Shown here piece after piece: positions 3,762-13,879 of a stretch of DNA of 25,085 nucleotides. Origin of the DNA: Pseudomonadota bacterium (lineage in GTDB: Bacteria; Pseudomonadota; Gammaproteobacteria; Steroidobacterales; Steroidobacteraceae). The position numbers were made by a program, and so were the translations under genes. Numbering within the stretch: position 1 is the first letter of the stretch; the number at the start of each line of letters is the position of its first letter. Below the pieces are notes generated by a model that was not told the DNA's origin, did no database searches, and saw only the letters and a program-made list of their open reading frames with translations. The DNA is taken from assembly GCA_021780395.1 (NCBI GenBank), contig JAJXYU010000275.1, positions 1 to 25,085 of the forward strand, in the 5' to 3' direction.

Positions 3762-4310
3762 CTAGAAGCGCCAGCTCACACCCGCGCTGAACACGTCCGA
3801 GTTGTAGGAATATCCCGCGTCGGTTCCGCCCGGGAAATGCGTCCATTCGAAGTTCAATCCGAGCGCGCCGCGCAATGCGACGTCGCCGCCGACGCCGAAC
3901 GACAGGCCAGTGTTGGTGGTGTGCCCGTCACCGAAGTTGCGGCTGAGGCTAACCGTGCCGAGTCCGGCGACGCCATAGACCGAGAACGTCGGCAGGATCG
4001 GGTAGGAACCCTTGAGATACGCGCCGCCGATCGTGTCGACGCTCACCGCGGCGCCGGCACTGTTGTCGCTCGAGAGTCCGGTCCCGATCCGGCCCTCGAT
4101 GCCGAAATAATCGGACAGCGGCATGCCGATGCGCGCGATGATCAGGCTGGGGCTCACGGTCGAGAGTCCGCTTTCGTCGTAGCGCATGATCCCGATATTC
4201 GCACCGACGTAAGGTTGGAAGTCGTACTGGGACGTTCCAAATCCGGCCGCGCCGGCGGTGCCGGACAGCACGAGCAAGGGTGCCGCGAACGGCAGACATC
4301 GTTTGATCAT
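3762..4310 (-). CDS. Outer-membrane beta-barrel protein
   Basis: 182 residues. A classic Sec signal peptide (MIKRCLPFAAPLLVLSGTAG, cleavage likely after AGA) is followed by a glycine-rich alternating pattern typical of an eight-stranded OmpA/OprF-N or Opa-like barrel (PF13505-type). Examples are QPYVGANIGIMRYD, YFGIEGRIGTGL, FSVYGVAGLGTVSLS and a final strand SAGVSWRF ending in Phe, the BAM recognition signature. FGIEGRIG and YGVAGLG are common in the porin-family small-barrel proteins. The function (adhesion, membrane stability or small-molecule passage) cannot be told. It is transcribed alone, convergent with the ammonium transporter. Confidence 0.88.
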   Translation of the reverse strand: MIKRCLPFAAPLLVLSGTAGAAGFGTSQYDFQPYVGANIGIMRYDESGLSTVSPSLIIARIGMPLSDYFGIEGRIGTGLSSDNSAGAAVSVDTIGGAYLKGSYPILPTFSVYGVAGLGTVSLSRNFGDGHTTNTGLSFGVGGDVALRGALGLNFEWTHFPGGTDAGYSYNSDVFSAGVSWRF

Positions 4311-4417
4311 CAGAAGTCCCCACGGTGGTTCGTTGTAAGAAGGTCGACTCCACCGTCGCGGCGGAGTTCCCGGGTCGCCAATCGGCGACAGTGCCGTCGG
4401 GCGCGCGGGCGTCAGGG

Positions 4418-4435
4418 GACTCGCGGGGCCGAGTC
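4418..4435 (-). terminator. Stem-loop downstream of doxDA
   Basis: GACTCG-CGGGGC-CGAGTC forms a 6-bp stem about 21 bp past the doxDA stop, in the gap before the beta-barrel gene. There is no T-run on the minus strand; it is a weak terminator candidate. Confidence 0.3.
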
Positions 4436-4456
4436 ACATTCGCGCGGATGCCTCGG

Positions 4457-5530
4457 TCAACGGGTGGTGCCGAGCGTGGCGCTCGTCGTGAACCGAATCG
4501 CGTCGATCGTGGTCGCCTCGATCACGTAACGGCCCGGCGCGAGGCGCAGTCCGGTTTGAGCCGCCGGCAACGCGATGGTCGCCTTGGAGCCGACGCCCGC
4601 CTGGATGCTCTCGAACCCGGGCCCGAACCGGTTGTACGCGTAATCGTTCGCGAACGCGGCTTTCGGCAGCGCGCCAAGATTCGAACCGTTCCAGGTCTCG
4701 ACGGCGCGCCCGTCCGGTCCGCGGAGCACGATCCGCACGATGTGCGCCGGGACGGCCGGCGTGCCCCCGTCGAGGTAGGCGTGGAACGAGACGCCTCCGT
4801 CGCCACGCACGACCGCGTCGCTCAGGGTCACATGATGCTTCGACGGGCTGACGGGACCGGAATGGAATGGCGTCACGACCGAACCCCGGTAGTAGTGATA
4901 GGTCGATACCACGAACAGGATCGTCACGACCCAGAGCGCCTTGCCGAGCGATTCGAGGGTCTTCTCCGGCAAGGCTCCGCTCGCGACCCAGCGAAACCAC
5001 GGCTTCCCCGCGAGCGCCGGCCGCGTCCGCCCGAGCCAGGCGTCGATCGAATAGGCACCCGCGCCACCCGCGAGCAGCGTCGCGCCGATCCCGAAATTGC
5101 ACGCCGCCATCGTCCACTCGTCGATGCAGGTGGCCCCTTGCCAGCCGAACAGCAACATCAGCACGACGCTCAGACCCATCGTGACCAGTGCGCTCAGCCG
5201 GGTCAGGAAGCCGAAGATCAGGAACAGACCGAAGATCAACTCCGCCGCGCTGAAGACGATGACGCCCGCATAGAGCAGGTAGAAATGCTGCAGCAGGTAG
5301 CTGACCAGGTGGTCCATTCCGAGGAGCGCGCCCGGCATCGCGGTCTGGAACTTGTTCGCCATCCAGTGCGCCGCGTGCGGATCGAGCTTCTTCGGCGCGT
5401 AGATGAATCGGCGGCTGCCACCGCCCCAGTAGATCCATCCTTGCACGAAGCGGGCGCTGAGCAGCGCGATGCCCGCGATCCGCCAGTCGGCGGATCGCGG
5501 GTTCCCGGTCGTCTTGGCATCGGTCGACAT
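4457..5530 (-). CDS. doxDA: DoxDA: thiosulfate:quinone oxidoreductase, DoxD-DoxA fusion
   Basis: 357 residues, the length expected of DoxD fused to DoxA, as in acidithiobacilli (the two are separate subunits in Acidianus). The DoxD part (about 15-170) is a DoxX-like four-helix membrane domain: RFVQGWIYWGGGSRRFIYAPKK, HFYLLYAGVIVFSAAELIFGLFLIFGFLTRL, then LFGWQGATCIDEWTMAACNFG. A further helix (about 197-211) anchors a C-terminal DoxA domain (about 213-350) with beta-rich segments and NRFGPGFESIQAGVGSKATI. In characterised enzymes thiosulfate is oxidised to tetrathionate and electrons pass to the quinone pool. It is the last gene of a three-gene operon, 33 bp after the binding-protein gene. 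A 13-bp perfect hairpin lies at codons 10-19. Substrate specificity here is inferred. Confidence 0.88.
   Translation of the reverse strand: MSTDAKTTGNPRSADWRIAGIALLSARFVQGWIYWGGGSRRFIYAPKKLDPHAAHWMANKFQTAMPGALLGMDHLVSYLLQHFYLLYAGVIVFSAAELIFGLFLIFGFLTRLSALVTMGLSVVLMLLFGWQGATCIDEWTMAACNFGIGATLLAGGAGAYSIDAWLGRTRPALAGKPWFRWVASGALPEKTLESLGKALWVVTILFVVSTYHYYRGSVVTPFHSGPVSPSKHHVTLSDAVVRGDGGVSFHAYLDGGTPAVPAHIVRIVLRGPDGRAVETWNGSNLGALPKAAFANDYAYNRFGPGFESIQAGVGSKATIALPAAQTGLRLAPGRYVIEATTIDAIRFTTSATLGTTR
5472..5501 (-). repeat. 13-bp perfect inverted repeat just inside doxDA
   Basis: Arms 5472-5484 and 5489-5501 are perfectly complementary with a 4-nt loop (AGTC on the plus strand). It encodes codons 10-19, beginning about 30 nt after the A of the start codon, so the mRNA would fold into a very stable hairpin close to the translation start. 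Confidence 0.8.
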
Positions 5531-5563
5531 GGCGCGGACCTCGTGACGTTCTGGACCGGCGTT

Positions 5564-6532
5564 TCAGTGGCGGTAGGGCGCGAAACCGTAGCGCGCGAAG
5601 ATCGCGAGCGCCGGCGGGGACTTCAGGAAGTCGACCCAGGCGCGCGCGGCCCGCGGGTGCGGCGCGCTCTTCAGGATCCCGGCGGCGTAGATCGCGGTCA
5701 CGTTCTGGGCGGAGGGGATCGCGACGTTTGCGATCGGATGCCCGGCCTGTTCCTGGAACATCGCCTCCGACTTCCACGTCACGCCCGCGTCGGCCTTGCC
5801 TTGCATCAGGAACAACGGCGTCTGCCGGTGATGGATGTGCGTGAGGATCGTCTCGCCGCTCTTCACCTTCGTCGCGTAGACCGCGGTCTCCAACGACCGT
5901 CCGCCCGCCTTCACGAGCGCCCCCTGGATCTGCCGCGCGACGCCCTCGAAGCGCGGGTTCGGCATCACCACGCGCACCCCGGGACGCGCGAGATCGGCGA
6001 GCGATGCGATGTGCGCCGGATTGCCCTTCGGGACCATGATCGTCAGATCGTTGGTGACGTACGGAACCGCCGGCCCGAGCACGTACCCCCGGGCGATCAT
6101 CGCCTGCACGCCGCGCAGCCCGGCCGCGAACACGTCCGCCCGCACGCTCCAGGTCATGTTGCCGACCGTGATCGTGCCGCCGTTCTCGATCTGCCGCACC
6201 AGCAATCCCGGGGGGATCGTCTCGTAGTAGATCTCACCGCGCAGCTCGGGATGCGCCTTCTCGAACGCCGCGACGAGAGGCGCCATCGCGAAGTAGTAGT
6301 TGCCGCCGACGAAGATCGTCAGTCGTGCGCCGCAAGGGTTGCCGTGGAAGTCGGGCAGGTCGTCGACCTCAGGCACCGTGAACTCGAGCCCGCGCCGCAC
6401 CGCCGGGTCGTTGGTGCCATGACTCCAGGGCGGATAGATCGAGTCCGCTCCCTGCGCGGCGCAAGCGGACGAGCCGCACCATGCGACGCACGCGGCGAGC
6501 GCCGCGACCATCGGCCAGATTCGCTGTCGCAT
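5564..6532 (-). CDS. Periplasmic substrate-binding protein, ModA/oxyanion-like
   Basis: 322 residues with a Sec signal peptide (MRQRIWPMVAALAACVAWC, then SSACAAQG). The mature protein looks like a type II periplasmic binding protein of the ModA/WtpA/sulfate-binding sort: LTIFVGGNYYFAMAPLVAAFEKAHPE, TNDLTIMVPKGNPAHIASLADLARPGVRVVMPNP, and a hinge with ADAGVTWKSEAMFQ. ATG at 6532 was chosen because GAGGG lies 7 nt upstream; an adjacent GTG at 6535 is possible. The gene sits 10 bp after the Tat-protein gene and 33 bp before doxDA. No ABC permease or ATPase is next to it, so it may present an oxyanion such as thiosulfate to the enzyme instead of feeding a transporter. That role is inference; a molybdate or sulfate binder is the alternative. 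Confidence 0.8.
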   Translation of the reverse strand: MRQRIWPMVAALAACVAWCGSSACAAQGADSIYPPWSHGTNDPAVRRGLEFTVPEVDDLPDFHGNPCGARLTIFVGGNYYFAMAPLVAAFEKAHPELRGEIYYETIPPGLLVRQIENGGTITVGNMTWSVRADVFAAGLRGVQAMIARGYVLGPAVPYVTNDLTIMVPKGNPAHIASLADLARPGVRVVMPNPRFEGVARQIQGALVKAGGRSLETAVYATKVKSGETILTHIHHRQTPLFLMQGKADAGVTWKSEAMFQEQAGHPIANVAIPSAQNVTAIYAAGILKSAPHPRAARAWVDFLKSPPALAIFARYGFAPYRH

Positions 6533-6542
6533 CACGTATCCC

Positions 6543-7337
6543 TCACTTCGCGTATTGAAAGCCCGCCGTGCCGAGTTCCGGCAGCGTCCCGACGATGCCC
6601 GGCGTCAGCACGGCGCCGGGGATCAGGTGGTTCGTGAACTCCGCGCCCATCCTCGCAAGGCTGAGCTTGTCCGGATTCACGCCCGTCGCATGCAACCTCG
6701 AGGACAGCTCGAAGATCGCATTGTGGCATGCGAGGAACACGACGCCGCGCGCCTGCAAGGTCGGGATGCTGTTGTCCTTCGGCGAGAACACGCCCGCCGG
6801 GTCTTCGAAGTCGGCTGCGTCGGCGTGCGCCGCCGCGGGGACGTCGAGGAACGAGTTGCGCGCGAATTTTCCGCCGGTGAGCTTCGCAAGCCCGTATTTG
6901 TCCCACAGGTACTGGTCGTACAGCGCAAGATGGGCGGTCCCATGGGTCGCAGAGACGACGAGGAAGTCCGGATGCTTGAACGCCCAGATCTGCGCGTTCA
7001 GCGAGTTGCGCATCAGGTTGAGCCAGGGACTGTCGATCGCGGTGTTGTCCCAGACCTGCTTCGGGCCGCCCCGGTAATGAGTCAGCAAAGCCAGGGCCTC
7101 GTGGTCCCATTGTTCCGGCGACGCGACGATCATCGGCACTTCCTTGAAATCGCGGCGGCGCGGCGCCTTCGCGAGCGCGGCGATCAGCGCCTTGAGATGT
7201 CCGCCGCCGGACTCGATCAGCGATGGGAGCGGCGTGCTCGCAGGTTGCGCGCGGGCGGATGCAAAGGGGTCCAACGCCATGCCGGCGATGCCGGTCGTCG
7301 CGACGATGCCCAGGAGATCTCTGCGGGTGACGGTCAT
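6543..7337 (-). CDS. Tat-exported protein, possibly DsrE-like
   Basis: 264 residues. The N-terminus MTVTRRDLLGIVATTGIAGM is a Tat signal (RRDLLG plus a mild hydrophobic stretch, then ARA before the mature protein), so export of a folded protein is expected. AAGGAG precedes the ATG by 9 nt. The C-terminal part has a long hydrophobic strand ending in the only cysteine (FLACHNAIFELSSRL, C204), then GVNPDKL and a terminal VGTLPELGTAGFQYAK. This resembles the way DsrE/DsrF-type sulfur-relay proteins place their cysteine and end, but the resemblance is weak and remembered, not computed. Proteins of this kind are often auto-annotated only as Tat signal proteins. It is the first gene of the operon with the binding protein and DoxDA, pointing to periplasmic sulfur chemistry. 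The function is not established. Confidence 0.75.
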   Translation of the reverse strand: MTVTRRDLLGIVATTGIAGMALDPFASARAQPASTPLPSLIESGGGHLKALIAALAKAPRRRDFKEVPMIVASPEQWDHEALALLTHYRGGPKQVWDNTAIDSPWLNLMRNSLNAQIWAFKHPDFLVVSATHGTAHLALYDQYLWDKYGLAKLTGGKFARNSFLDVPAAAHADAADFEDPAGVFSPKDNSIPTLQARGVVFLACHNAIFELSSRLHATGVNPDKLSLARMGAEFTNHLIPGAVLTPGIVGTLPELGTAGFQYAK

Positions 7338-7618
7338 GGTGATCTGCTCCTTGCCATACGGTTGCCATGCGGTTCCCGCGAACCCCGGGCGCCGCGAAAT
7401 GTATCGAGATTTGCTAATATTTGCGGACAGCCCTGGATATTAAGCCCGACGTCCTGCGATGCGCAATCCTTCCGGGTCGGCGCCAACCGGGGGTGGCGCA
7501 CCGTGGTCCCCGAACGGTTGCGGGTTGACCGGCTGTGGCCGCCCGCCGACAATCCCCCCAGATACGGTCGCCCGTTGCCGCGCCGCGGCGGCCCGCGCTC
7601 CGCAGAGGAGTCCCAGCG
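7338..7618. promoter_or_regulatory. Divergent intergenic region with an AT-rich patch (promoters likely)
   Basis: The 281 bp separate the sulfur operon (-) from ybjQ (+). A strikingly AT-rich island at about 7397-7443 (containing GATTTGCTAATATTTGC) stands out from the GC-rich background and is the best place for promoters in both directions. On the minus strand TTGCGC-N18-TAATAT is a possible -35/-10 pair. Near the operon start, CGCATGGCAA and CGTATGGCAA form a short direct repeat (about 7348-7368). Nothing here is a firm promoter call. Confidence 0.4.
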
Positions 7619-7942
7619 ATGCTCGTCGTCACCACCGAGAACGTCCCCGGTCAGCGCGTCTCGCAGGTCAAGGGCCAGGTCTTCGGCGTCGTCGTTCGCA
7701 GCCGCGGAATCGGCGGCAACGTGATGGCCGGCCTGCGTTCGCTGGTCGGCGGAGAGATCCACGAATACACCCAGATGCTCGAGGAGGCGCGCCGCCACGC
7801 GCTCGATCGGCTGGTTACGAACGCGCGGGCGATGGGCGCGAACGCCGTGGTGATGATGCGATTCGACTCCGCCGAGATCGGACAGACGATGAGCGAGATC
7901 GTCGCGTACGGCACCGCGGTCGTGATCGAGCCTGCGACCTGA
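7619..7942 (+). CDS. ybjQ: YbjQ/UPF0145 family protein
   Basis: 107 residues, the same length as E. coli YbjQ. The ATG at 7619 follows AGAGGAG by 8 nt; the upstream in-frame extension is Arg/Pro-rich and unlike the family. Family features: VTTENVPGQRVSQVKGQVFG at the start, GIGGNVMAGLRSLVGGEIHEY in the middle, then ALDRLVTNARAMGANAVVMMRFDSAE and a final AYGTAVVIEP. YbjQ proteins form compact beta-rich oligomers and were once proposed to bind heavy metals, but no biochemical role is agreed. It starts a two-gene unit with the small membrane protein 10 bp downstream. Confidence 0.93.
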   Translation: MLVVTTENVPGQRVSQVKGQVFGVVVRSRGIGGNVMAGLRSLVGGEIHEYTQMLEEARRHALDRLVTNARAMGANAVVMMRFDSAEIGQTMSEIVAYGTAVVIEPAT

Positions 7943-9851: not shown

Positions 9852-11129
9852 TCAAGCCGCGGCGATCTCCGGCAGTGCCGCCAGCGCATCCTCGATCGAC
9901 CCATATTCCCGGCGTCGCGCGAGCCAGTGCCTCGCGATTCCGAGCGCGCTGCGCTCACAGCAGGCGCGCCTCGCCGGGTCGGCGATGTCGTCGAGGTCCG
10001 CAACGTGCGCAAAGCCGACGACCCGGCGGATCATCTTGCAGGCTGCATAGCCCAGCATGTCGGCGAACAATGCATCCAGATACTGTCGTCGCGCCGATTC
10101 GAGCGCCGCCCCGTCGCCGGGTTCGCGGAACAGCGCCGCGGGCCATGCGTCGCCATGTCCTGCCGTCCGCCATAGACCCAGGAAGCGGTCGTGGAACGCC
10201 GTCCAGAACGCCCTTGCCTGCTCGAGGATCCAATCGCGATATGCGTCGCGTTCGCCGGGGCGAAGTGCGAGACCGGGCTGGGCGCACCATGCCAGCACGA
10301 GGTTGCCGAGAAAAGCCCCCAGGTCGAATCCGAGCGGTCCATAGAACGCGAACTCCGGATCGATCACGCGCGTGTCCGCGTCCGTGACCATGATCGAACC
10401 GGAATGCAGATCGCCATGGATCAGCGCCTGCGTCTCGCCGAGGAACCGCCGGCCGAGTTCGGCGGCGGCCCCCTTTGCCGCGGCGTCACAACGCAGCGCC
10501 GCGACGTCGCGATCGAGGTGCGGGCGGGTATGGCGGTTGCGCGGGTGCTCGAAGTACGGATCGGTGAAGATCAGGTCGACCGAAATCCGGACCAGGTCGG
10601 TGTTGCCCGCGAAGCGGGCGATGCGATCGAATTTGCGCTCGAACGGCTCCGCCAGGTCGGACGTGAAAAATCCGGCGCGGGCGACGTAGTCACCGATGTC
10701 CTGCCCGACGCTCGCATAGCGATGGCCGGCGATCAGCCCGCGCCGCAGGATCACGTGCGGCGTCAAGCGCTCCATCACGATCGCGTACTGGTCGGGATCG
10801 TAATGAAAGACGTGCGGAATCGCCGCGCCGACGTGCGGCGCGACGGCCGCATAGTAGGCCTGCTCGTAATAGGCCCGCTCGAGCGTCATCGGCCAGGAGG
10901 GCCCGGCGACTCGCAGGTAGGGGAGCGCTTGCTTCACGCAAATCGACCCCTCGGGACCGTCGACGATAAACACGAGGTTCAGGTTGCCGTCGCCGACCTC
11001 GCGCGCCGTCCAGCGCCCCGGCGCGCCGCCGAGCCGTTCGCGCACCGCCGGCAATGCCGCGAGCCAATTCGCGAGCGATGCCGTCTCGAGCGTGCGGTAG
11101 CCGGCCGGTACCTGCGCCGTCGTGTTCAT
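9852..11129 (-). CDS. mtnK: 5-methylthioribose kinase
   Basis: 425 residues, the usual size. MtnK phosphorylates 5-methylthioribose (from methylthioadenosine cleavage) with ATP to give 5-methylthioribose-1-phosphate. Visible motifs: nucleotide loop GDGNLNLVF (46-54), VKQALPYLR with the ATP-binding Lys (about K66), catalytic HGDLHSGS (238-245) and metal-binding DPEFAFYGPLGFD (257-269), all highly characteristic of methylthioribose kinases within the aminoglycoside-phosphotransferase fold. The open frame extends well 5' of ATG 11129, but that part overlaps the aldolase gene and is Arg-rich. The ATG overlaps the aldolase stop as ATGA (11126-11129), so translation is probably coupled. It is the third gene of the salvage operon. 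Confidence 0.97.
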   Translation of the reverse strand: MNTTAQVPAGYRTLETASLANWLAALPAVRERLGGAPGRWTAREVGDGNLNLVFIVDGPEGSICVKQALPYLRVAGPSWPMTLERAYYEQAYYAAVAPHVGAAIPHVFHYDPDQYAIVMERLTPHVILRRGLIAGHRYASVGQDIGDYVARAGFFTSDLAEPFERKFDRIARFAGNTDLVRISVDLIFTDPYFEHPRNRHTRPHLDRDVAALRCDAAAKGAAAELGRRFLGETQALIHGDLHSGSIMVTDADTRVIDPEFAFYGPLGFDLGAFLGNLVLAWCAQPGLALRPGERDAYRDWILEQARAFWTAFHDRFLGLWRTAGHGDAWPAALFREPGDGAALESARRQYLDALFADMLGYAACKMIRRVVGFAHVADLDDIADPARRACCERSALGIARHWLARRREYGSIEDALAALPEIAAA

Positions 11130-11869
11130 CGGGGTTCTTCCCGCGTTCCCGGCGGTGGATCCGTGATTCGGATCAGGTCCGGATCCGCGTCGTCCTGCCG
11201 GCCATAGGTCGCGAACCGGTCGAACACCTCGCGCATCTGCGCCGCGGTGAGCACTGCGACATTCCCGAGCCCGAGCGCGATCCGGTATTTCGCCGCGAGG
11301 TCTTCGATTTCGGCCGCGAGGCCGAGGGTCGCTTCGAGGTCGGATCCGACGCACAGCACGCCGTGATTCGCGAGCAGGCAGGCCCGCCGTCCGGTGAGCG
11401 CCGCGAGCGCGGCCTCCGACAAGGCCTGTGTGCCGAACGTCCGGTACGGTGCGCAGCGCACGTCCTCGCCGCCAGCCGCCGCCACCATGTAATGGAATGC
11501 CGGTATACCCCGTCCGGTGCAGGCGAGCGCGGTGGCCTCACGCGAATGGGTGTGCACGATCGCGGCGACCTCTGGCCGCGCCCGGTACAGATCGCGATGG
11601 ATGCGCCACTCGCTCGACGGCCGTCGGCCACCTCGCCAGCGCCCGTCGAGGTCGACGAGCGCCACGTCGTCGGACCGCAGTGCGTCATAGGGCGTCCCGG
11701 TCGGGCTGACGAAGAAGCGATCGGTATCCCGCCGGACGGAGACGTTGCCGGCGGTGCCGACGATGAGCCCCTCGCGGACCAGCCGGCGGCAACCGTCGAT
11801 CACCGCGGCACGAAGCGCCTGATCCCTGCGCCACTCGACGTCTGCCGCGTGCGTCGCCGATCCGGTCAT
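11126..11869 (-). CDS. ald2: Class II aldolase, 5-methylthioribulose-1-phosphate aldolase (Ald2-like)
   Basis: 247 residues of the AraD/FucA fold. Zn ligands and catalytic groups are all present: GTAGNVS phosphate loop (38-44), Glu in SSEWRIHRDLY (E87), HTH (H106, H108) and the ANHG histidine (H169). The middle GIPAFHYMVAAAGGEDVRCAPYRTFGTQALSEAAL resembles the aldolases encoded between mtnA and mtnK, which split 5-methylthioribulose-1-phosphate into DHAP and methylthioacetaldehyde (DHAP shunt), and 5-deoxyribulose-1-phosphate likewise. ATG 11869 overlaps the mtnA stop (ATGA), and its own stop overlaps mtnK. An MtnB dehydratase is the main alternative; the FucA-like middle and the absence of mtnC/mtnD nearby favour the aldolase. 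Confidence 0.85.
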   Translation of the reverse strand: MTGSATHAADVEWRRDQALRAAVIDGCRRLVREGLIVGTAGNVSVRRDTDRFFVSPTGTPYDALRSDDVALVDLDGRWRGGRRPSSEWRIHRDLYRARPEVAAIVHTHSREATALACTGRGIPAFHYMVAAAGGEDVRCAPYRTFGTQALSEAALAALTGRRACLLANHGVLCVGSDLEATLGLAAEIEDLAAKYRIALGLGNVAVLTAAQMREVFDRFATYGRQDDADPDLIRITDPPPGTREEPR

Positions 11870-12957
11870 CGGTCCGCTCGCCGCTCGGGATAGAGTCCGA
11901 GGAGCCCGTCGCCGGTCGCGGGGCATACGCCGCGCTCGGTGATCAAGCCGGTCACCAGTCGCGCAGGAGTGACGTCGAACGCAAGGTTCAACGCCGGGCT
12001 TCCCACCGGCACGACCCGTACGGTCGCCAACCCGCCGCCGTCGGCGAGGCCGGTCAGGTGCGTCAACTCGCGCTCGGGACGCTCTTCGATCGGAATCTCC
12101 TCGCCGTGCGCGATCGACCAGTCGATCGTGCTTGCCGGCAACGCTGCGTAGAACGGCACGCCGTTGTCGTGCGCCGCGAGCGCCTTCAGGTAGGTACCCA
12201 CCTTGTTGCAGATGTCCGCGGTCGCGGTGGCTCGGTCGCTGCCGACGATCACCACGTCGACGCGGCCGGTCTGCATCAGGTGTCCCCCGAGGTTGTCGGC
12301 GATGACCGTATGGGGCACCCCGTGGGCGGCAAGTTCGAATGCGGTCAGGGAAGCGCCCTGATTGCGTGGTCGGGTCTCATCCACCCAGATGTGCAGGGCG
12401 AGTCCTTCGTCGTGCGCACGATAGACCGGTGCGAGCGCAGTGCCCCAGTCGACGCAGGCAAGCCAGCCGGCATTGCAGTGTGTCAGCACGTTCAGGGGCC
12501 TGGCGCTCGCTGCGCCGGCGAGACGGCGCAGCAGCGCGGCGCCGTGTTCGCCGATCGCCCGGCATTGCGCGACGTCGTCGTCGCAGATCGCGGTGGCCTC
12601 CCGGAAAGCGGCGTCGGCGCGTGAGGCGGGTGCGACGTGCGTGAGTGCCAGGCGCATCCGGTCGAGCGCCCACGCCAGGTTGTGAGCGGTCGGCCGGGTG
12701 GCGAGCAGCGCTCGCGCGGCGGCTTCGATCGAGCGGTCCGACGGATCCTCGCGCACCGCGAGCGCAAGCCCGTAGGCCGCGGTCGCGCCGATCAGCGGCG
12801 CGCCCCGCACGATCATCGTGGCGATCGCGCGCGCGGCATCGGCGAGCGAGCGCAGATCGACGGTCGCGAATTCGAACGGCAGGCGCGACTGGTCGATGAC
12901 CCGTACCGCGCCGTCGGCCAGCCAGAGGGTACGATAGGAGACGCCCGCGACTTTCAC
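11866..12957 (-). CDS. mtnA: 5-methylthioribose-1-phosphate isomerase
   Basis: 363 residues. It converts 5-methylthioribose-1-phosphate to the ribulose form. The GTG at 12957 gives MKVAGVSYRTLWLADGAVRV, the normal family N-terminus; longer in-frame readings start in sequence unlike MtnA. Diagnostic segments: AIATMIVRGAPLIGATAAYG, RPTAHNLAWALDRM, THCNAGWLA with the catalytic Cys (C161), WVDETRPRNQGASLTAFEL, and VGSDRATATADICNKVGTY with the catalytic Asp (D241). No Shine-Dalgarno is evident before the GTG. It heads the mtnA-ald2-mtnK operon, with a 4-bp overlap to the aldolase gene. eIF2B-like paralogues are excluded by these motifs. Confidence 0.97.
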   Translation of the reverse strand: MKVAGVSYRTLWLADGAVRVIDQSRLPFEFATVDLRSLADAARAIATMIVRGAPLIGATAAYGLALAVREDPSDRSIEAAARALLATRPTAHNLAWALDRMRLALTHVAPASRADAAFREATAICDDDVAQCRAIGEHGAALLRRLAGAASARPLNVLTHCNAGWLACVDWGTALAPVYRAHDEGLALHIWVDETRPRNQGASLTAFELAAHGVPHTVIADNLGGHLMQTGRVDVVIVGSDRATATADICNKVGTYLKALAAHDNGVPFYAALPASTIDWSIAHGEEIPIEERPERELTHLTGLADGGGLATVRVVPVGSPALNLAFDVTPARLVTGLITERGVCPATGDGLLGLYPERRADR

Positions 12958-13252
12958 CCGCGCGATCTTAACCGATCTCCGGCAGCCCTCGGCGATTGTG
13001 CGTCCTGTCGCAGTTTGTCGAGCCGGCGCGCATCGCGGGTCGATGAATGCGGGCCGCGGCCGATAAGCCGGTGGATCCGCTGCGCATCGGCGTGGGGTCG
13101 GCTGCGCCGGATCGAGATTCGAACAACGATGCGCCCGGCGTTGACCGACGACTTCCCGCCGATGCTCGCCGAGCGAGTCGCACATCTTTCCCGGGCGATC
13201 CCGATCGCGGTGCCGCCGTGGGCTGACGCGGCCAATTCCTGAGCGCCGCCGA
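12958..13252. other. Intergenic region upstream of mtnA
   Basis: 295 bp between the NUDIX stop and mtnA, with no believable gene. The minus strand carries TAAGAT only 7 nt before the GTG, a -10-like hexamer with no convincing -35, so a leaderless start is possible. I see no SAM, SAH or other riboswitch fold. Confidence 0.35.
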
Positions 13253-13879
13253 TCAGTCGAATGCGACCGGTCGCGACGGATCCCGACGGTATGCGAACGC
13301 GGCGGCGACGTCTTCGGGCAGCGTGCGCCCGGTCGACAGAGGCGGAATCGCGCGCTCGGTGAAAAATGCGGCGTCGGTCGTCTCGGCGCCGGGTCGCGGT
13401 GCGGTCTCGTCGAGTCGTTCGCACACGAAGAACAGCTTGTAGAAGTCGCGGGTATCGGCGTCATAGCGGTGCCGCGCCTTGTGCCGGACCGCATACAGCG
13501 CCCGGGCGTCGACACGGATCGACGCCTCCTCGAGCACTTCCTTCACGATGTTCTCGCCCGGCGAACGGCCGACGTCGGCGAAGCCGCCCGGCAGGGTCCA
13601 CCGGCCGTCACTCGCCTCGCGAACCAGCAGGATGCGGCTGTCGCGATCGAATATCGCACCCCGGACCTCGACGAGCGGTGTCGCGTAGCCGCGCGCGAAA
13701 TCGGGCACCAGGTCCCGGATGCGCTGGGGCGGCACGTCGGCGAGCGCGGCGAGCATCTCGTTCGCAATGGACGCGGCCTCGGCGTAGCGTTCACGGTCGA
13801 ACGGGCTTTCGGCATAGTGCAGTCCCGTCGCCGCGATCGCGTGCAATCGCTTCGCCCAGGCGAGCCACTGATCCTCCAC
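13253..13879 (-). CDS. NUDIX hydrolase with N-terminal helical domain
   Basis: 208 residues from the GTG at 13879, chosen because GGGAG lies 8 nt upstream and the protein starts VEDQWLAWAKRLHAIAATGL, the usual opening of the Nudix_N domain; a GTG 30 bp upstream is possible. The N-domain (about 1-60) is followed by a Nudix fold with PLVEVRGAIFDRDSRILLVRE, WTLPGGFADVG and the Nudix box (about 98-120). The box keeps the metal-binding EVLEE core but has Arg where the first Glu usually sits (VGRSP instead of VGESP), Lys for Arg before the EVLEE core, and Ser for the Gly. ADP-ribose, NADH or nucleoside-diphosphate-X are usual substrates. It diverges from the methyltransferase gene. Confidence 0.9.
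   Translation of the reverse strand: MEDQWLAWAKRLHAIAATGLHYAESPFDRERYAEAASIANEMLAALADVPPQRIRDLVPDFARGYATPLVEVRGAIFDRDSRILLVREASDGRWTLPGGFADVGRSPGENIVKEVLEEASIRVDARALYAVRHKARHRYDADTRDFYKLFFVCERLDETAPRPGAETTDAAFFTERAIPPLSTGRTLPEDVAAAFAYRRDPSRPVAFD

Follow-up and report, generated by a model that had tools for sequence, protein, structure and literature searches.

A tsd-sbp-doxDA gene set from a Steroidobacteraceae bacterium, its probable role in periplasmic thiosulfate oxidation and the alternative partners of its relatives

The analyzed window, i.e. the whole stretch of 25,085 nucleotides from a Steroidobacteraceae bacterium (assembly GCA_021780395.1, contig JAJXYU010000275.1), harbors three genes, tsd, sbp and doxDA, located head to tail on the minus strand at 4457..7337, which probably form an operon for the periplasmic oxidation of thiosulfate to tetrathionate. 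The first, tsd (6543..7337, minus strand, ATG start), encodes a thiosulfate dehydrogenase (TSD) of 264 residues, exported by twin-arginine translocation (Tat) and displaying a DsrE/DsrF-like fold. The second, sbp (5564..6532, minus strand), encodes an exported type II periplasmic binding protein of the sulfate/molybdate kind, 322 residues long and without ATP-binding cassette (ABC) partners, and the third, doxDA (4457..5530, minus strand), a fused DoxD-DoxA thiosulfate:quinone oxidoreductase (TQO) of 357 residues. The observed trio is confirmed by the coordinates, which agree with the compact head to tail arrangement, with gaps of 10 and 33 bp, given in an earlier sequence-only reading of this DNA. 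The 10 bp gap between tsd and sbp corresponds to an ATG start of sbp at 6532, an in-frame GTG being present 3 bp upstream (6535), and 33 bp separate sbp from doxDA. GAGG-type ribosome-binding sites can be read in the sequence ahead of sbp and doxDA. No terminator-like site was detected between the genes of the trio; the only such site on their strand lies inside doxDA and is within chance (1 found, 1.8 expected), and a promoter scan found no sigma-70-like promoter on this strand in 4200-7700.

Concerning TSD, the protein shows an Arg pair at residues 5-6, corresponding to a Tat-type signal, and a single Cys at position 204 (codon 6726..6728, minus strand, motif CHN), with no recognisable cofactor site. 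It matches NF052225, the thiosulfate dehydrogenase equivalog, with 386.5 bits (cut-off 300) over model positions 1-259 of 259, and by sequence it is a member of the TSD family rather than an uncharacterised protein. The unnamed sulfur protein of the sequence-only reading thus already belongs to a named family, while its DsrE fold and key cysteine stand. NF052225 would in turn represent the family of Acidithiobacillus ferrooxidans AFE_0042, judging from the TSD relatives in six Acidithiobacillus loci (L034, L056, L059, L067, L070 and L073), which are 57-66% identical to the window protein. The enzyme was reportedly called tetrathionate-forming by Kikumoto in 2013. Close named matches come from a Gammaproteobacteria metagenome-assembled genome (MAG; L004, 87% identity) and a Steroidobacteraceae MAG (L006, 78%). 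Cys204, which ends the strand 200-204 and precedes a helix, is kept in 81 out of 81 TSD sequences, i.e. the window and the 80 named loci described below (79 of the 81 are distinct).

Fold comparison assigns a DsrE/DsrF-like fold to the core of TSD, and both the Tat-exported DsrE-like protein with one Cys described earlier and the fold check then proposed against DsrE came out in this sense. Foldseek E-values are modest (best 1.8e-3, none at <=0.001); hhalign gave Prob 93.2 and E 3e-7 for one comparison of TSD with a DsrE-like profile, with Cys204 aligned on the DsrE cysteine, which we take to be the conserved position of DsrE itself, and Prob <=0.3 in 12 control comparisons. The 20 DsrE-like proteins employed in hhalign were hand-picked, not drawn at random, from PF02635 matches, and most look exported by eye. 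None of 40 TSD members matches the Pfam DsrE family PF02635, under which TSD is not filed, even when E-values up to 10 are allowed, and sequence searches of TSD against solved structures and Pfam yielded nothing useful; hence, it is only fold and profile comparison that carries the DsrE link. TSD has its fold and cysteine position in common with the DsrE/DsrF-like sulfurtransferases (2pd2, 1l1s, YchN, DsrEFH), but unlike them it has a Tat-type signal and is extended at its N-terminus, its residues 132-199 form a long segment separating two strands of the core, and a Pfam DsrE match is missing. In the class sample, the TSD profile is matched by a set of DsrE-like proteins that appear to be exported and share a conserved cysteine (L125-L141 and others). 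The nearest genome, G001, shows two adjoining DsrE matches at contig C113:4558-5312 (L098), a hint of more sulfur genes, and at contig C193:3553-3918 (L002) a possibly DsrE-like protein that matches the TSD model weakly and in part (20.6 bits, under its cut-off).

The binding protein, earlier labeled ModA-like, matches PF13531 with 188 bits; its score with the ModA model TIGR01256 is 46 bits, below the 62.5 cut-off. It also remains below the cut-offs of the sulfate model TIGR00971 (39 bits, cut-off 155.5) and of CysP NF008106 (36.2 bits, cut-off 308). The nearest solved structures are the sulfate-binding SubI 6ddn and 1sbp, and many homologues bear molybdate-binding names in their source records. 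The stretch His234-His235-Arg236-Gln237 (codons 5822..5833, minus strand), a candidate ligand-contact segment, and Trp253 are invariant in 57 out of 57 near-full-length binding proteins, the window included; this count and that for DoxDA omit partial matches below 80% of the query length, leaving 57 binding proteins and 20 DoxDA. A Pfam scan of 16 window proteins found neither an ABC permease nor an ABC ATPase, the other open reading frames of the window being viewed as translations, and the protein is hence the orphan that had been described. The modA model, run on G001 (84% complete), hits sbp alone, with a score below its cut-off.

DoxDA passes the gathering scores of both PF04173 (104.8 bits, gathering 22.7) and PF07680 (31.8 bits, gathering 27), which agrees with its previous naming as a thiosulfate:quinone oxidoreductase fusion, and it is the sole DoxD match in G001. 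Its DoxD and DoxA domains are those of the Acidianus ambivalens DoxD/DoxA TQO, from which it differs by their fusion into one chain and by not reaching the TQO_large_DoxD cut-off (see below). The predicted model, of moderate quality, presents five long helices, taken as membrane helices, followed by a beta domain, with a mean predicted local distance difference test score of 71 (<50 in much of the first helix), and simple hydropathy recovers 3 of the 5 helices. From charges and helix count, this five-helix topology would leave the DoxA domain and Cys135 facing the periplasm. Cys135 (codon 5126..5128, minus strand), within the GWQGATCIDEW segment between predicted helices 3 and 4, is kept in all 20 near-full-length DoxDA sequences adjoining TSD, window included. 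A fold search with DoxDA returned generic beta-sandwich matches to the DoxA part alone and was not used.

To place the trio among its relatives, named genomes were scanned, which gave 310 stretches, 260 of them encoding a TSD relative, and the best 80 were kept as named loci. Binding proteins were counted within 1.5 kb of TSD, and DoxDA or TsdA within 6 kb, omitting cytochrome matches that cover <60% of the query. The full trio occurs in the same order as in the window in 19 of the 80 loci, which makes it more than chance, and the conservation of gene order proposed as a check in the sequence-only reading was thereby found. A binding protein lies near TSD in 58 loci, always downstream and on the same strand (58/58). 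DoxDA is the partner in 20 loci and TsdA in 31, both occur together in 0 and neither in 29, with the binding protein present in 19/20, 28/31 and 11/29 of the DoxDA, TsdA and remaining loci, respectively. The hypergeometric odds of finding no overlap between DoxDA and TsdA, which ignore relatedness, are 8e-6 for the 80 loci and 6e-6 for the 60 located away from contig ends, and a quick tree, in which 23 of 76 inner branches are weakly supported, displays 7 changes between both partners. Ferrovum, Methylobacterium, Acidiphilium, Acidocella, Thiomonas and Planctomycetota MAGs are among those with TsdA, and Acidithiobacillus, a Ferrovum MAG and the relatives of the window among those with DoxDA. 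As judged from gene content, this shows partner exchange, TSD and the binding protein standing beside either DoxDA or the unrelated TsdA/TsdB; DoxDA, previously placed as the fixed center of the set, is instead one of two alternative partners.

The TsdA identity of these neighbors derives from the match of one representative to the PDB entries 5lo9 (3.5e-76) and 4wq7 (1.5e-46), from PF21342, over cut-off in 6 out of 6 TsdA-bearing proteins scanned, and from two CXXCH haem motifs plus an active-site Cys motif, presumably that of TsdA, present by pattern in 31/31. In three loci (L010, L012 and L015) the gene downstream of the binding protein encodes a long cytochrome that combines a triheme part and TsdA in one chain and carries five CXXCH motifs, and in L040 and L042 the triheme part and TsdA are separate genes. 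An apparent loss of DoxDA in the near relative L009 was rejected, as a 93.5% identical DoxDA appears about 7 kb beyond the binding protein (G506); this locus is counted as having neither partner in the 6 kb tally. In a close relative of the same genus (L156, 1-8801), the genes of the binding protein and DoxDA are about 7 kb apart, vs 33 bp in the window.

Five Planctomycetota or Phycisphaerales MAG loci (L025, L035, L049, L050 and L055) encode the binding protein and TsdA in one chain; 4 of the 5 sequences were read, and L025 was checked against PDB and Pfam. Using one such fusion as query, a protein search revealed at least 27 fusion clusters among the best 120 of 847 matches, 25 of them joining the binding protein to TsdA and 2 to TsdB-TsdA by their domains (P0266 with four CXXCH, P0268 with three). 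Four of the 27 were re-scanned, and the TsdA cysteine motif is present in 25 by pattern and in the other two by eye. The TsdA part of P0266 is nearer to the Ferrovum type (61%) than to that of Planctomycetota (48%), which suggests a second fusion event. Because it is fused elsewhere to the thiosulfate dehydrogenase TsdA, the binding protein appears to be rightly tied to thiosulfate chemistry. In another protein, P0271 of Candidatus Hydrogenisulfobacillus filiaventi, it is fused to about 490 residues without Pfam match.

TSD is rare in the window's order, where 3 of 97 genomes contain it, G001 included. In a sample with less bias, 398 genomes of the phylum, it occurs in 6, G001 among them. The other five comprise one with TSD, binding protein and DoxDA, one with TSD, binding protein, TsdB and TsdA, one with TSD and binding protein plus a triheme cytochrome and TsdA, and two with TSD and no binding protein, DoxDA or TsdA within the 14 kb read. 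DoxD over cut-off and TsdA never coincide in the 6 genomes checked of 8 bearing TSD (excluding G288 and G336): G001, G506, G527 and G004 display a DoxD match over cut-off and no TsdA match genome-wide, and G325 and G192 contain TsdA and no DoxD match over cut-off genome-wide, G192 having one just below. The haem enzyme TsdA was thus not found by search in G001, although the same query matches in G325 and G192, and a search of this 84% complete genome found no SoxB either. G001 contains a single full copy of the trio, vs two divergent copies in A. ferruginosus (L034).

The trio is a further instance of an already published cluster. In A. ferrooxidans, the genes of the Tat protein and the periplasmic binding protein were described in 2008 as clustered with doxDA, and a comparable order was noted in Gluconobacter oxydans (PMC2621215); the order AFE_0042-0043-0044 was listed in 2009 with log2 ratios of -1.5, -2.2 and -2.3, favoring sulfur over iron (PMC2754497), and tsd-sbp-doxDA was drawn for this species in 2019 (PMC6335251). 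The periplasmic thiosulfate-oxidation set of the sequence-only reading was right as such, but its gene order was not new. The A. ferrooxidans tsd-sbp-doxDA(-rhd) cluster (AFE_0042-0044 and AFE_0050-0048) contains the same three families in the same order, whereas in the window no rhodanese adjoins and an outer-membrane barrel follows doxDA instead. AFE_0042 itself is reviewed as a thiosulfate dehydrogenase of about 25 kDa with an optimum at pH 2.5, which reduces neither ubiquinone nor cytochrome c (PMC6335251), and therefore an electron partner is likely needed. Judging by title or abstract, no paper on a DsrE fold in TSD, on the exchange of DoxDA and TsdA as partners or on the fusion of binding protein and TsdA was found in the open-access literature, which is no proof of absence.

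In the proposed mechanism, the binding protein would collect thiosulfate, or handle tetrathionate, in the periplasm, and TSD would take thiosulfate onto Cys204 as Cys-S-thiosulfonate and couple it with a second thiosulfate to yield tetrathionate. DoxDA would drain the two electrons into the quinone pool through its Cys135 side and the periplasm-facing DoxA domain. In relatives, the diheme cytochromes TsdA/TsdB occupy the position of DoxDA, so that TSD and the binding protein would act as a front end for either electron exit. Tool results support the family assignments, the fold, the invariance of the cysteines, the order of the genes, the exchange of partners and the fusions; we infer the ligand identity, the thiosulfonate intermediate, the periplasmic side of DoxA and the contacts between the proteins. 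The chemistry assigned to Cys204 may be drawn by analogy from TsdA, which acts through a cysteine S-thiosulfonate (PMC4423706, PMC9562282), and from a DsrE protein that forms Cys-S-thiosulfonate from tetrathionate (PMC4175335). TsdA/TsdBA diheme dehydrogenases carry out the same reaction and in relatives adjoin TSD and the binding protein, but are haem enzymes of the SoxA kind. We are confident of the thiosulfate role and much less so of how labor is divided among the proteins. A more general, and tentative, reading is that TSD and the binding protein constitute a portable front end for thiosulfate that has been recombined with two unrelated redox enzymes, DoxDA, which delivers to quinone, and TsdA(B), which delivers to cytochrome c; in this reading, TSD would be a DsrE-fold thiosulfonate carrier, not a free-standing dehydrogenase, and the binding protein an enzyme subunit feeding a redox enzyme, not part of an ABC importer, as both kinds of fusion suggest.

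Several observations weigh against the proposed operon and mechanism. DoxDA scores 84.9 bits with NF041179 (TQO_large_DoxD), below the equivalog cut-off of 300. No binding protein lies within 1.5 kb in 22 of the 80 loci, and of the 29 loci without DoxDA or TsdA within 6 kb 13 are near a contig end and 16 away from the ends; the independent-pairs exclusion test leaves 5 pairs on well-supported branches with a median p of 0.5. In the literature, a second A. ferrooxidans binding protein, AFE_0049, shows no sulfur preference (0.3; PMC2754497), and for the archaeal TQO a cytoplasmic orientation has been suggested (PMC4175335). A. caldus and A. thiooxidans have doxDA without a TSD homologue (PMC6335251), so DoxDA can serve without TSD, and since TsdA makes tetrathionate as an isolated enzyme (PMC4423706), a TSD located next to it would be redundant if it had no further role. 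Finally, DsrE3A reacted with tetrathionate, not with thiosulfate (PMC4175335), which is the reverse of the step proposed for TSD.

The redundancy of TSD beside TsdA is better accommodated if DoxDA (or TsdA) is the true dehydrogenase and TSD an accessory thiosulfonate carrier or product-releasing protein, with the binding protein supplying both, than by two full dehydrogenases. We regard this alternative as somewhat doubtful: it agrees with the adjacency of TSD-binding-protein pairs to TsdA, with the lack of quinone or cytochrome c reduction by AFE_0042, with doxDA occurring without TSD in A. caldus and A. thiooxidans, with the thiosulfonate carrier function of a DsrE-like protein (PMC4175335) and with fusions that join the binding protein to TsdA (as seen with one fusion as query), but dehydrogenase activity has been reported for AFE_0042 itself (review PMC6335251). 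The behavior of DsrE3A, together with TsdA enzymes working in both directions (PMC6879331), could also indicate a set that works on tetrathionate, captured by the binding protein, with TSD or DoxDA running toward thiosulfate release or sensing. This we consider unlikely given the activity reported for the A. ferrooxidans TSD and the sulfur-favored expression (PMC2754497), and quinone or cytochrome partners would suit oxidation.

That sbp encodes a common scavenger of molybdate or sulfate, located here by chance, could be argued from the molybdate-binding names of many homologues, from SubI and 1sbp as nearest structures and from the lack of another modA-model match in the 84% complete G001. 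It is nevertheless very improbable, considering the scores below the ModA, sulfate and CysP cut-offs, the missing transporter genes among the 16 proteins scanned, the 58 out of 58 adjacent copies that follow TSD on its strand and the TsdA fusions.

As to its relevance, the TSD of acid-living sulfur oxidizers is a named enzyme, yet no published fold, catalytic residue or electron acceptor was found for it, and the DsrE fold with an invariant cysteine, together with the exchange of DoxDA and TsdA, makes its catalytic residue and electron acceptor testable. If the binding protein feeds an enzyme, this would imply a wider role for binding proteins without transporters, and the gene would be a marker for thiosulfate oxidation in genomes where it is now called molybdate-binding.

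A final point concerns the remainder of the window. Upstream of tsd lies a YbjQ-family gene on the opposite strand. The left end (1-804) harbors a tandem array of about 3 copies of 252-base units with 87-94% matches, which may belong to a gene for a large, repetitive surface protein. At 9852-13515, on the minus strand, genes match the APH-type kinase, class II aldolase and IF-2B families of Pfam, which is presumably the set expected for methylthioribose (methionine) salvage.

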